Position numbers and translations under genes: made by a program | The notes under the pieces: model-generated | Database searches by the model: none | What the model was told of the DNA's origin: nothing | What the model saw: only the letters and a program-made list of their open reading frames with translations | In this document: piece after piece, positions 11,598-15,177 of the stretch | Numbering within the stretch: position 1 is the first letter of the stretch | Layout of the letters: each line of letters starts with the position of its first letter | DNA from: Lachnospiraceae bacterium | GTDB taxonomy: Bacteria > Bacillota > Clostridia > Lachnospirales > Lachnospiraceae | Length of the DNA: 32,082 nucleotides | NCBI GenBank assembly: GCA_017624495.1 | Contig: JAGAMY010000026.1 | Span: 1 to 32,082 of the forward strand | Direction: 5' to 3'

Positions 11598-12137
11598 TTA
11601 CAATTTCACCAACACCATTTCATGCCCCACCGCCGGTAAAAATTTTTCAAACACATCCTTACATCTTAACCGCAAACTGCTGGTATTGATACAAGGATGA
11701 CAGCCAAAATATTCATCCTTTAATAAATCCTCATCCACCAAAAGCTGCACCTTATTTTCCTTATCATTCATAAGCCCTAATACACTCACAGACCCCGGTG
11801 TAATGTCTAAATACTTTTCCATTTCTTCTGCTCCGGCAAAGGAAAGTCTTGCACTGCCAATCTGGGAGGTAATATCCTTTGTTTTAAACTTTTTGTCCCC
11901 TAAAATCATCAGCAGATAAAACTGTGTTTTCTGTCTGTTACATAAAAATAAATTTTTGCATATGGCTGCATTTAACACCTTATCAATTTCCTCACAGGCT
12001 TCCATGGTATTTGCTTCTTCATGGTCGATTCTTTCATATTCAATCCCTAGTTTGTCTAATAAATCATATACTCTGACTTCTTTTTCTAATCGATTATCTA
12101 TGTTCTGTGGTCTGCCCTTAACCAACTCTAAATGCAT
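11598..12137 (-). CDS. YbaK/PrdX-family aminoacyl-tRNA editing domain protein
   Basis: A stand-alone 179-residue protein of the prolyl-tRNA synthetase-associated (YbaK/ProX/PrdX) fold, which deacylates mischarged tRNA, typically Ala- or Cys-tRNA(Pro). It shows YERIDHEEANTMEAC, AICKNLFLCNRQKTQFYLLMILGDKKF (the K of KNLFL is the usual key lysine), GSARLSFAGAEEMEKYL, TPGSVSVLGLMND and FGCHPCINTSSLRL. The ATG has CAGGAG upstream. It follows cobO by 31 bases and is probably co-transcribed with it. Substrate specificity cannot be read from sequence. Confidence 0.87.
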   Translation of the reverse strand: MHLELVKGRPQNIDNRLEKEVRVYDLLDKLGIEYERIDHEEANTMEACEEIDKVLNAAICKNLFLCNRQKTQFYLLMILGDKKFKTKDITSQIGSARLSFAGAEEMEKYLDITPGSVSVLGLMNDKENKVQLLVDEDLLKDEYFGCHPCINTSSLRLRCKDVFEKFLPAVGHEMVLVKL

Positions 12138-12168
12138 AATTTTTTTCTCCTGTTTTCCTTAAATTTCA

Positions 12169-12684
12169 CTAAAATTCTATGCCTTTTCTGGCGGATACGC
12201 CTTTATCAAAGGGATGCTTTATCTTTTTCATTTCTGTAATATACTCTGCTTTTTCTGCAAGAGTCTCTGATGGTTTACGTCCTGTTAATATAATTTCTAC
12301 TGTTTTTCCATATTTGTCCAGAAATTTCAGCACTTTTTCCACATCTATCATATTTGTGCAGCAGGCATCACATATCTCGTCTAATACAATCATGTCATAA
12401 TTTTTTTCTGCCATAGCCTGTTCGATTTTATCCCAGTAAGTTCTGTAATATGCCATAGCTTCTTTTCTGGTTTCTTCATCCATTGTAAAAGTAAAGCCAA
12501 ACTCTCTCTCCGGAAGTAAGCACTCTACACCCGAAAGCGTTTTTAACAGACTACATTCACCAGATGTACCATCCTTTAAAAACTGACAAAACAGCACTTT
12601 CTTTCCAGCTCCCACACAGCGTATGGCACTTCCTACAGCACCTGTGGTCTTTCCTTTTCCATTTCCTGTATAAATCTGAATCAT
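12169..12684 (-). CDS. cobO: Corrinoid adenosyltransferase CobO/BtuR-type
   Basis: A 171-residue ATP:cob(I)alamin adenosyltransferase that makes adenosylcobalamin. It begins MIQIYTGNGKGKTTGAVGSA with the P-loop at residues 7-14, then KVLFCQFLKDGTSGE, YDMIVLDEICDAC (Walker B) and VEIILTGRKPSETLAEKAEYITEMKKIKHPFDKGVSARKGIEF, the typical C-terminus. Its start codon and ribosome site AGGAAG fall in the left copy of a 22-bp repeat that also forms the end of the DHH gene. The two genes therefore originally overlapped by ATGA, before the ATPase gene was inserted. Confidence 0.94.
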   Translation of the reverse strand: MIQIYTGNGKGKTTGAVGSAIRCVGAGKKVLFCQFLKDGTSGECSLLKTLSGVECLLPEREFGFTFTMDEETRKEAMAYYRTYWDKIEQAMAEKNYDMIVLDEICDACCTNMIDVEKVLKFLDKYGKTVEIILTGRKPSETLAEKAEYITEMKKIKHPFDKGVSARKGIEF

Positions 12685-12700
12685 GCGTATTTCACTTCCT
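12679..12700. repeat. 22-bp direct repeat, copy 1
   Basis: This 22-bp sequence (begins AATCATGCG, ends CACTTCCT) is identical to 14186-14207. It carries the ribosome site and first codons of cobO. The ATPase stop codon ends one base outside it. Confidence 0.92.
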
Positions 12701-12701
12701 T

Positions 12702-14054
12702 TTACATCAAAATACTGAAATCCGGTTTATAAATCATTTCTCCTAATTCCTCTTTTTGCACAAAAGAAATCATATAAATCGGATAATATCGTATATTTCC
12801 TTTTTCTTTAATATTTGCATTACAAAAAACATAAGACTTTTCAATACCATATCGCGGATTCGTCATACAATTATTTAATGCTGCATGTCTTTCATAAGCT
12901 TTTCCTGACTTAATTTCTATTGGCAGAACTTTTCCCTGATATTCTATAAGAAAATCTAATTCTCCCAATCGGTTATTATTGTAATAAAACAAATCAAATC
13001 CATGACATTTCAATTCCTGTGCCACAACATTTTCATATATCGCATCATAATTCATGTTTAATTCATTCATAAGAATTTTCATTTGAAAACCATCTGCATA
13101 CATTGCCGCCAATAATCCCACATCCGATAAAAAAAGTTTAAATAAATTGGTAGACTTAGATAACAGCAACGGTACAGCAGGTTCTGATGCACAATAAACC
13201 GGAAGCGCTACCCCCGCATCCTTCAGCCAGATAAAACTGTGTTCATATCTGGAAAACTTAAAATTTTCATTAAGACTTTTCATGATAAAGCGCTTGTTCT
13301 TATTATTTAATTCACTCGGAATCAAGTTAAAAATATCTTCTAAATATAATTTATTTCCCGGATCATATTTTGCAATATCTTTCTTATATTGTGCTATAAT
13401 CTGTTTTTGTAATTCTATGACCTGCTGCAGATTGTTTGTATCTATATATCTTTGTACAACCTCCGGCATCCCACCTACAATCAGATATAACCGAAACAAT
13501 TCCATCATCTTATCATGAATCAATGCATCCACAGGTTTCACATTTTGATAGCACTCTTTTAACATTTCCATAATCTGCGCTCCAACCTGATTTGCCATGC
13601 AAAACTCTTCGAAATCCATAGGATACATTTCCATAATCTGCATATAACCGACCGGAACAGAACGAATATCTTTCAGTTCAACCCCTAACAAAGAACCACT
13701 TAGCACATAGCGAAAACTACCTTCTTCCACAAGAAATTTAACAGCCGTAACCATTTCCTTACATTCCTGTACTTCATCCAAAAATACTACTGTTTCATCC
13801 TTAATCAGCGGCTTGTCTGCAATTGCCGATAATCTAAGCAAGATATCTTTAGAATCCTTAAAATCAGAGAATATCTTTCTTGCCTCTTCATTTTCAACAA
13901 AATTTATCTCTATAACAGAAGAAAATTCTTCTCTTAAACATTCTCTTACAATATATGTCTTTCCTATTTGTCGCGCACCGGTGATAAGTAATGCCTTTTT
14001 TTTCAAATCTCCTCGTAAAAAACGCTGTATACTTTTTTTTATTTTCCGTTTCAT
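12702..14054 (-). CDS. AAA ATPase with DUF4143 (PD-(D/E)XK-like) C-terminus
   Basis: A 450-residue protein of the widespread AAA_14/DUF4143 family, whose cellular role is not established. Residues about 20-150 form the ATPase: Walker A GARQIGKT (26-33), Walker B VVFLDE (89-94) followed by VQECKEM, and a sensor-like YVLSGSLLGVEL. Residues about 180-240 are helical. The C-terminal domain contains GELDFLIEYQGKVLPIEIKSG, in which D367, E380 and K382 match a PD-(D/E)XK nuclease-like arrangement. The gene looks more AT-rich than its neighbours and lies exactly between two 22-bp direct repeats, splitting DHH and cobO, so it appears to be an acquired insertion. TATAAT at 14078-14083 is a likely -10, without a good -35. 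Confidence 0.9.
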   Translation of the reverse strand: MKRKIKKSIQRFLRGDLKKKALLITGARQIGKTYIVRECLREEFSSVIEINFVENEEARKIFSDFKDSKDILLRLSAIADKPLIKDETVVFLDEVQECKEMVTAVKFLVEEGSFRYVLSGSLLGVELKDIRSVPVGYMQIMEMYPMDFEEFCMANQVGAQIMEMLKECYQNVKPVDALIHDKMMELFRLYLIVGGMPEVVQRYIDTNNLQQVIELQKQIIAQYKKDIAKYDPGNKLYLEDIFNLIPSELNNKNKRFIMKSLNENFKFSRYEHSFIWLKDAGVALPVYCASEPAVPLLLSKSTNLFKLFLSDVGLLAAMYADGFQMKILMNELNMNYDAIYENVVAQELKCHGFDLFYYNNNRLGELDFLIEYQGKVLPIEIKSGKAYERHAALNNCMTNPRYGIEKSYVFCNANIKEKGNIRYYPIYMISFVQKEELGEMIYKPDFSILM

Positions 14055-14077
14055 ACTATACCTTCTTGCACTTTTTT

Positions 14078-14083
14078 ATTATA
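14078..14083 (-). promoter_or_regulatory. Predicted -10 box of the ATPase gene
   Basis: A perfect TATAAT on the minus strand lies 24 bases before the ATPase start codon. No TTGACA-like box lies 16-18 bases upstream. TTGTAT of the nearest 15-bp repeat is 22 bases away, so activation or control through the repeats is possible. Confidence 0.5.
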
Positions 14084-14097
14084 ATATGCCATATTTC

Positions 14098-14177
14098 GTC
14101 CGTTTATACAAGGCTTTTCATATATTTTTGTCCGTTTATACAAGGTTTTTCCAAGTCGTTTCGTCCGTTTATACAAG
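14098..14177. repeat. Three 15-bp direct repeats (iteron-like)
   Basis: GTCCGTTTATACAAG occurs identically at 14098-14112, 14130-14144 and 14163-14177, in one orientation, at starts 32 and 33 bases apart (about three helical turns). Flanks share TTTCG or TTTTT before and GG with T-rich sequence after. The repeats lie between the right 22-bp repeat and the ATPase promoter, so they belong to the inserted unit. Confidence 0.92.
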
Positions 14178-14185
14178 AAATTTTA

Positions 14186-14207
14186 AATCATGCGTATTTC
14201 ACTTCCT
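14186..14207. repeat. 22-bp direct repeat, copy 2
   Basis: Identical over 22 bases to 12679-12700. It encodes the last residues and stop codon of the DHH gene and retains a vestigial cobO start (ATG ATT followed by a stop). Confidence 0.92.
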
Positions 14208-15177
14208 CTAATATATTTTCTTGTACAACGGTTAAAATATCTTCTATATTTTTTGTATCTGCCAACGGAATGAATCCTCCTGCCATAGCCGCATGGCCGC
14301 CGCCATTTCCAATATCCTTTAACGCCCGGCTGATAATACGCCCGGCATCATGACCGCCTTCACTGCGCACAGAAAGCTTTATACCATTTTTCTGAATCGC
14401 ATATACCACAGAAAATTTCACTTCCACCACGGCTAACATAAAATCCGAAACACTGGCAATTAAAGCCTCCGGGCAGTTTTCTCCCACACAGGCAAAGCTT
14501 ATACTGTCAAATACACGAATACTTTCAATAGCTTTCGAATACGCAGCTAAATCTTCAAAATAAATCTCTGCATTTTCTAATTTTCTAATAATGCTGCCAT
14601 CACATTTTTCCCACATGCGGTAAAGCATCTCTAAATCCAGCTTAGACACCCCTCTGGAAAGCTTGTCCGTATCACTGCGAATGGCATAGGTTAAAGCTGT
14701 GGCTATTCTTTCATCCATGAAAATCTGATTTTCAAAAAAATAACTTGCGATAATTGTGGCACAGGCACCAACCTCCGGACGGATATCTGTATAACGGTAT
14801 TCCATCTGATTTTCTTTTCTGCTGCTTAATGCCGATACCGGATGATGGTCTATACAGATAATTTCCATTCCTGTCATATCGATAATATTAGAATTTCCCT
14901 TCTGTGCATCTACTAAGATAATTTCATCATCCTCACACAACTGCTCTTCTATATCCTCTAAATTTACCAGTTCAATCCCTAACAGCTCTATGAGCTTAAG
15001 GGTATTATATCTGTCAATTTTCCCTTTATAACAGATGGTCGCATCTATCCCCTTGTGTGCCAGTAAATTCTGCAGGCCAAAGGCACAGGCGATTGCATCC
15101 GGGTCCGGAAAATTATGTGTCTGTATATATACATGCTCTTTTTGGATAAACTGTATCATTTTCTCTAATCTTGTCAT
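14188..15177 (-). CDS. DHH/DHHA1 phosphoesterase, NrnA-like
   Basis: A 329-residue protein of the DHH family (nano-RNase, pAp phosphatase or cyclic-dinucleotide-linear-product hydrolase type). The DHH domain has THNFPDPDAIACA (H21, D25, D27), LVDAQKGNSN (D90) and the signature IDHHPV (D110, H111, H112), which bind two metal ions. The DHHA1 domain ends with NGGGHAAMAGGF (G292-H295 region). It begins MTRLEKMIQF after GGGG. Its stop codon originally overlapped the cobO start. The exact substrate cannot be decided; NrnA-type oligoribonuclease is the most likely reading. Confidence 0.87.
   Translation of the reverse strand: MTRLEKMIQFIQKEHVYIQTHNFPDPDAIACAFGLQNLLAHKGIDATICYKGKIDRYNTLKLIELLGIELVNLEDIEEQLCEDDEIILVDAQKGNSNIIDMTGMEIICIDHHPVSALSSRKENQMEYRYTDIRPEVGACATIIASYFFENQIFMDERIATALTYAIRSDTDKLSRGVSKLDLEMLYRMWEKCDGSIIRKLENAEIYFEDLAAYSKAIESIRVFDSISFACVGENCPEALIASVSDFMLAVVEVKFSVVYAIQKNGIKLSVRSEGGHDAGRIISRALKDIGNGGGHAAMAGGFIPLADTKNIEDILTVVQENILEEVKYA

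Follow-up and report, generated by a model that had tools for sequence, protein, structure and literature searches.

A gene of the PDC-S01 family, in which an AAA_14 ATPase is fused to a DUF4143 domain, has been inserted between two intact genes of a Lachnospiraceae bacterium, with duplication of a 22-bp target sequence and with an array of three short direct repeats upstream of it; the array is conserved in the family, as are the catalytic residues of the protein. Gene and array probably constitute a passive single-gene cassette, comprising a PDC-S01 ATPase-nuclease of STAND-like type and an array that it would bind for self-control.

An insertion between DHH and cobO

The window analysed here, 32,082 bp in length, is a whole contig from an assembly that is 54.67% complete. 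Features of the locus are as follows.

12169..12684, minus strand: cobO (CobA_CobO_BtuR), downstream neighbour, intact
12679..12700, no strand: 22-bp target copy on the cobO side, holding the cobO ribosome site and start codon (cobO begins at 12684)
12702..14054, minus strand: inserted AAA_14 ATPase with DUF4143 and PD-(D/E)XK-type C-terminus (PADLOC PDC-S01), recognised by Pfam, PADLOC, invariant residues and structure model
14098..14112, minus strand: array unit 3, nearest the gene, exact 15-mer
14130..14144, minus strand: array unit 2, exact 15-mer, 32 bp to the next
14163..14177, minus strand: array unit 1, farthest from the gene, exact 15-mer, 33 bp to the next
14186..14207, no strand: 22-bp target copy on the DHH side, an exact repeat holding the last DHH codons and stop, present as a single copy at the same place in genome G009
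14188..15177, minus strand: DHH/DHHA1 gene, upstream neighbour, intact

The preliminary description of this DNA had proposed that a 1,507-bp single-gene segment lies between perfect 22-bp direct repeats, one holding the cobO ribosome site and start and the other the end of DHH. Both copies of AATCATGCGTATTTCACTTCCT were found, with those contents, exact at 12679-12700 and 14186-14207 (offset 1,507 bp). There was no third copy in the window at ≤3 mismatches (0.00 expected from 100 shuffles), and the motif does not behave there as a conserved dispersed repeat. The TAA stop of the inserted gene lies one base from the repeat, as described. Collapsing the repeats joins DHH and cobO by an ATGA overlap, and this predicted arrangement exists in G009, a genome of the same genus, where the DHH-cobO junction is an empty site with one 22-bp copy and the ATGA overlap (133/190 alignment columns identical). 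The segment is therefore an insertion that spared both neighbouring genes.

G009 is the one relative in which the DHH neighbour was inspected at the window site; a cobO match was found in 60/98 genomes, of which only that of G009 is close (77%; next 49%). The two window copies of the repeat agree with each other throughout, including at the positions where they depart from G009, which fits local duplication. Between the repeats lies one gene, whose domains account for all Pfam matches there, and a transposase acting from elsewhere may have been involved; no Rfam match was found in 12000-14800.

The inserted gene and its protein

The inserted gene encodes 450 amino acids, matching Pfam AAA_14 (98.2 bits) and DUF4143 (98.6 bits) and, over residues 1-447, the PADLOC PDC-S01 profile PDLC04792 (E = 1.8e-197). 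It belongs to PDC-S01, a PADLOC phage defence candidate, and shares with that family a single-gene make-up combining an ATPase with a PD-(D/E)XK-type domain. The Walker A/B motifs and residues E341, E365, D367, E380 and K382 were invariant in 44/44 aligned sequences, and the PD-(D/E)XK pattern E...D...ExK is present as E341, D367, E380 and K382, in keeping with the earlier suggestion of such a C-terminus built on the last three of these residues.

A structure model of the full protein (pLDDT 85.5, pTM 0.87) placed the N-terminal part (residues 1-320) closest to 2qen and 2fna, then to CED-4 and plant NLRs, with origin-recognition ATPases also matching at a lower score. The first two are the archaeal STAND-type ATPases PAB2304 and SSO1545, which share 15% and 14% identity with the protein and differ in that its nuclease-like C-terminus lies outside the match. 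For the isolated C-terminal domain (residues 290-450, pLDDT 72.8), the best Foldseek rows included MGME1, Hjc, McrC, Can2 and DdmD at E values of 0.005-0.2, none reaching E ≤ 0.001. No relative was found among sequences of solved structures at E ≤ 0.01, nor any match in PHROGs. The segment contains no methyltransferase, and its cargo is not a restriction-modification unit. A promoter had also been claimed within the segment, but a sigma-70 scan found no minus-strand site between 14055 and 14185. Most likely the protein is a STAND-like, ATP-controlled nuclease belonging to a defence or selfish module, of which a defensive role would be one reading.

Probable acquisition and spread of the gene

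Within the genus, a family member of any kind (E ≤ 1e-20) was present in only 4/15 genomes, including G000, the genome of the window itself, and the other members were ≤35% identical to the window gene. In the host family, by comparison, 155/299 genomes carried a member, the nearest seven listed being 58-66% identical, and homologues of 57-66% identity occur in other genera. On this sequence evidence the window gene was most likely acquired. Conceivably the segment is ancestral and was excised cleanly from G009 through recombination of one repeat with the other: direct repeats permit such precise loss, and G009 is the one close relative that could be compared. This is highly improbable, however, given the distribution just described, in which members elsewhere in the genus are so distant and homologues in other genera so much closer; moreover, an original insertion would still be needed to make the repeats.

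Relatives at 45-63% identity, among the 80 best of 420 confirmed stretches, lay on contigs of Clostridia, Bacteroidales, Treponema, Akkermansia, Fibrobacter and Bifidobacterium. Two more DUF4143 matches, close together on opposite strands, occur in the window's own genome (G000:C37:18133-19805). Complete E. coli genomes gave no DNA-level match to a Pasteurellaceae homologue, and so E. coli provided no strain-level empty sites. According to the available text of published surveys, PDC-S01 ranks fourth among prokaryotic defence systems, with 9,986 archaeal and 29,494 bacterial instances (PMC12988326), and rumen genomes hold 10,358 (PMC13356809); validation is pending for most such defence candidates (PMC12988326).

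Flanking repeats across PDC-S01 relatives

Relatives were represented by 243 distinct complete genes, with enough flank in 241 for repeats, 240 for arrays and 236 for distances and unit counts. DNA upstream of the start codon was compared with DNA downstream of the stop codon by ungapped local alignment (match +1, mismatch -2; threshold 15). A score ≥15 was found at 36/241 loci, against 0.67 expected from permuted pairs, 4/461 same-geometry placements in the flanks (Fisher 7e-14) and 1/85 gene-centred windows (Fisher 2e-4); this count supersedes earlier ones. At ≥18 the contrast was 29/241 loci versus 1/461 placements and 0/85 gene-centred windows. Orthologous loci L147 and L148 of sister species (98.6%) were counted once. 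It had been expected that other insertions of this subfamily would be flanked by duplications of 20-25 bp: direct repeats of site-specific sequence are indeed present, but their aligned length over the 36 loci ranged from 15 to 84 bp.

Most of the 29 repeats scoring ≥18 were present, among the fetched loci, only as the pair; extra copies came from overlapping fetches or orthologous loci, except for one other locus (L130) and internal copies (L085, L286). The repeats of L078, L140, L085 and L130 resemble dispersed intergenic repeats or terminators, so some of the 36 may not be target copies. Near-identical copies in G362 were discarded, the two contigs being the same region (100% over 6,310 bp) and hence an assembly duplicate. 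At L114, a 71-bp flanking repeat includes two array units, such that part of the array is duplicated to the right of the gene, and at L126 the right repeat is followed by another set of array-like units, which may mark an additional or decayed element.

Repeats often spanned a gene 3′ end or a hairpin. Upstream open reading frames were co-directional at 67/96 loci, as if insertion targeted gene ends in a single orientation; but of the 36 repeat loci, 15 had a plus-strand gene ending close to the left copy and 16 a minus-strand gene ending close to the right one, and such a rule was rejected. Hairpins were likewise rejected as a general target: 11/36 repeats fold clearly better than nearby windows, with a mean z of -0.64.

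An empty site was also sought in Bifidobacterium. At L147 (Bifidobacterium biavatii) the terminal part of the upstream gene, stop codon included, is present as a 51-bp copy with 47 positions identical; by eye, this gene looks like a thioredoxin reductase gene. It was matched in 81/112 genomes; 30 loci were retrieved, of which 11 entered the comparison. In 7/11 (L207-L212 and L214) the flanks adjoin so closely that the ATPase gene would not fit between them; the element is present in L205, while L206, L217 and L218 show no matching right flank. The two Bifidobacterium copies could represent a duplication whose members later diverged.

A conserved three-site upstream array

The three 15-bp repeats that had been pointed out in the segment are exact copies of CTTGTATAAACGGAC (starts 14098, 14130 and 14163; 0.05 expected), and they turn out to represent a conserved feature of the family. 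The assembly contains three copies of their 12-mer core, GTATAAACGGAC, all of them in the window array (reversed control pattern, 1 + 3). Defining an array as a 16-mer that recurs 32 or 33 bp downstream with ≥13/16 identities, within 200 bp before the start codon, arrays were detected at 189/240 family loci versus 3/454 control windows from the same flanks; a first, looser count of 120/141 (ad hoc score, without control) is superseded by this figure. The pattern was present at 5/259 open reading frames around HipA and AbiE loci. Three units were counted in 115/194 arrays, with spacings of 33 (275 cases), 32 (130), 34 (19) and 31 bp (1), and the last unit starts a median of 50 bp before the start codon. 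The position of a promoter after the last unit was not sharply fixed, TAnnnT occurring 12-16 times per offset at several offsets versus a mean of 5.

Motif similarity between arrays rose with protein identity (Spearman 0.40, reached by 0/500 Mantel permutations), indicating that array and protein are inherited jointly. When a different unit was used to fix the register, columns within a unit were 0.51-0.75 identical between elements whose proteins share 55-75% identity, as against 0.29-0.43 for columns outside it, a sign that selection acts on the unit itself. The array motifs of L001 and L002, paralogues in the window's genome, differ from each other. At L034 the usual array is preceded by a further series of repeats built on another unit (GAATTAACGAT type). 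Free-standing arrays were considered and rejected: TTGGAAAAACGGACA was found in 9/299 host-family genomes, three of the matches (G105, G110 and G210) lying just upstream of known PDC-S01 genes, and the six other, single matches do not exceed the 14 matches of the reversed pattern.

On the simplest reading, the encoded protein would bind the array as a control site. The three sites, 32-33 bp or approximately three turns of DNA apart, would be occupied by a DNA-binding protein, probably the ATPase, which would thereby control the gene.

The extent and ends of the mobile unit

Six pairs among 141 distinct loci were 82-95% identical, base by base, over 1.45-1.58 kb, and between members of these pairs no flank match was found at ≥80% over ≥200 bp. 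The shared block runs from the first array unit, or close to it, to the vicinity of the stop codon (in L080/L082 it reaches somewhat further), and since it thus spans array to stop, array and gene must travel together. The distance from the left repeat to the first array unit was not fixed, ranging from -50 to 201 bp (n = 27), nor was that from the stop codon to the right repeat (0 to 247 bp, n = 29). DDE or IS-type elements are characterised by a short target duplication of fixed length and by defined ends; here both repeat lengths and end positions vary, making a transposase that reads fixed ends unlikely.

HipA and AbiE modules

Repeats were not confined to PDC-S01. Although these comparison sets are small, comprising 50 of 60 fetched HipA loci (L354, eight partial or weak matches and one locus unrecognised by motif were omitted) and 27 of 30 fetched AbiE loci (L436, L442 and L443 were left out), repeats scoring ≥15 were found at 7/50 HipA loci (0.09 expected; 25-98 bp; one of them the L115 insertion) and 6/27 AbiE loci (0.05 expected; 27-99 bp), figures that express enrichment over their own controls and are not strictly comparable as rates with those of PDC-S01, given the longer upstream windows (890 and 1,140 bp versus 455 bp). 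Repeat-flanked HipA loci were L384, L405, L364, L390, L373, L408 and L403, the repeat at L405 covering the end of a gene that, by eye, is presumably gyrB; the AbiE loci were L439, L428, L438, L421, L418 and L432.

At L115, a HipA-type pair (Couple_hipA and HipA_C) lies between two copies of a 38-bp sequence which, in the orthologous L117, sits inside a 73-bp repeat around a second PDC-S01 gene. In these two rumen Bacteroidia (L115:4464-6156 and L117:4419-6005) the repeat separates the HipA pair and the PDC-S01 gene, as if insertions had occurred successively at the same spot.

Discussion

The preliminary description had left open whether the ATPase mobilises itself or is moved passively by another enzyme. 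The data lean towards the latter, HipA and AbiE modules having the same kind of repeats and the ends not being fixed; the cassette would have been inserted passively, with a long target duplication, by a route common to small selfish modules, and the ATPase would not drive its own insertion. A self-mobile element would instead read the array as its end, make variably spaced staggered nicks and insert its own gene. Such an element would account for the position of the array, which in several of the near-identical pairs marks the left boundary of the shared block, and the invariance of the Walker and nuclease residues together with the wide spread of the family, from Clostridia to Bifidobacterium contigs, is equally to be expected of a self-mover, which weakens the passive reading. 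We nevertheless consider self-mobilisation quite unlikely. HipA and AbiE modules are flanked by like repeats, among them a HipA pair at the very 38-bp sequence that in the orthologous locus borders a PDC-S01 gene, the distances from repeat to array and from repeat to stop vary, and the best folds are STAND and origin-type ATPases, although a fold shows no function.

The repeats might instead stem from homologous or homology-assisted integration, in which a circle or fragment carrying the end of a neighbouring gene recombines in a relative (Campbell-like or one-sided) and no duplication takes place at insertion. L137, where 73 identical bases are followed by a gene end that by eye differs through silent changes only, would be explained in this way, as would the frequency with which repeats cover a gene 3′ end or hairpin. 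This is unlikely: the agreement of the two window copies in their differences from G009 is that of local duplication, the Bifidobacterium copies are compatible with duplication and later divergence, and recombination of this kind accounts for spread at the same site among relatives, not for first arrival at a new one.

Passive insertion with a long target duplication has precedent in restriction-modification genes of Helicobacter pylori (Nobusato et al. 2000, via PMC1643837, PMC3031569 and PMC3874152), and duplications ‘in the order of 100 bp’ are mentioned in the accessible text of PMC3874152. As far as these accounts go, the cases are alike in having a small selfish or defence unit, a long and variable copy and an allele that lacks the insert, apparently with no link to a known mobile element; they differ in that the cargo here is a PDC-S01 ATPase-nuclease, the copies are 15-84 bp long and a three-site array travels along. 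Most likely, then, we are dealing with a known, poorly understood passive route carrying a new cargo. The parts of PMC12988326 and PMC13356809 available to us treat the prevalence of PDC-S01 and its transfer between domains, whereas target duplications and array come from the present analysis, and the open-access text searched names neither for the PDC-S01/DUF4143 family.

The conserved three-site array is a new and testable feature. Small, mobile modules that control themselves are familiar from autoregulated toxin-antitoxin and C-protein restriction-modification systems, which, as described in PMC3874152, are controlled through operators that overlap the promoter and are bound by a protein of the module itself. 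Those operators, however, are inverted repeats within the promoter, whereas the PDC-S01 sites are three direct repeats 32-33 bp apart, at which the protein would bind. The array offers a direct and cheap handle, being a defined DNA target with a motif that varies along with the protein.

Should PDC-S01 prove to be an autonomous element, with the 3 x 33-bp array as its end and PD-(D/E)XK nicks giving rise to the 15-84 bp copies, which we regard as a long shot, then a very common annotated ‘defence system’ would represent a new type of single-gene transposon, and that activity, or one like it, would also have carried the HipA and AbiE insertions as passengers. On the passive reading that we prefer, the repeats hint at a single route by which PDC-S01, HipA and AbiE modules come to be inserted in genomes. 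The 25-year-old puzzle of long target duplications may thus extend well beyond restriction-modification genes, with many more examples to study.
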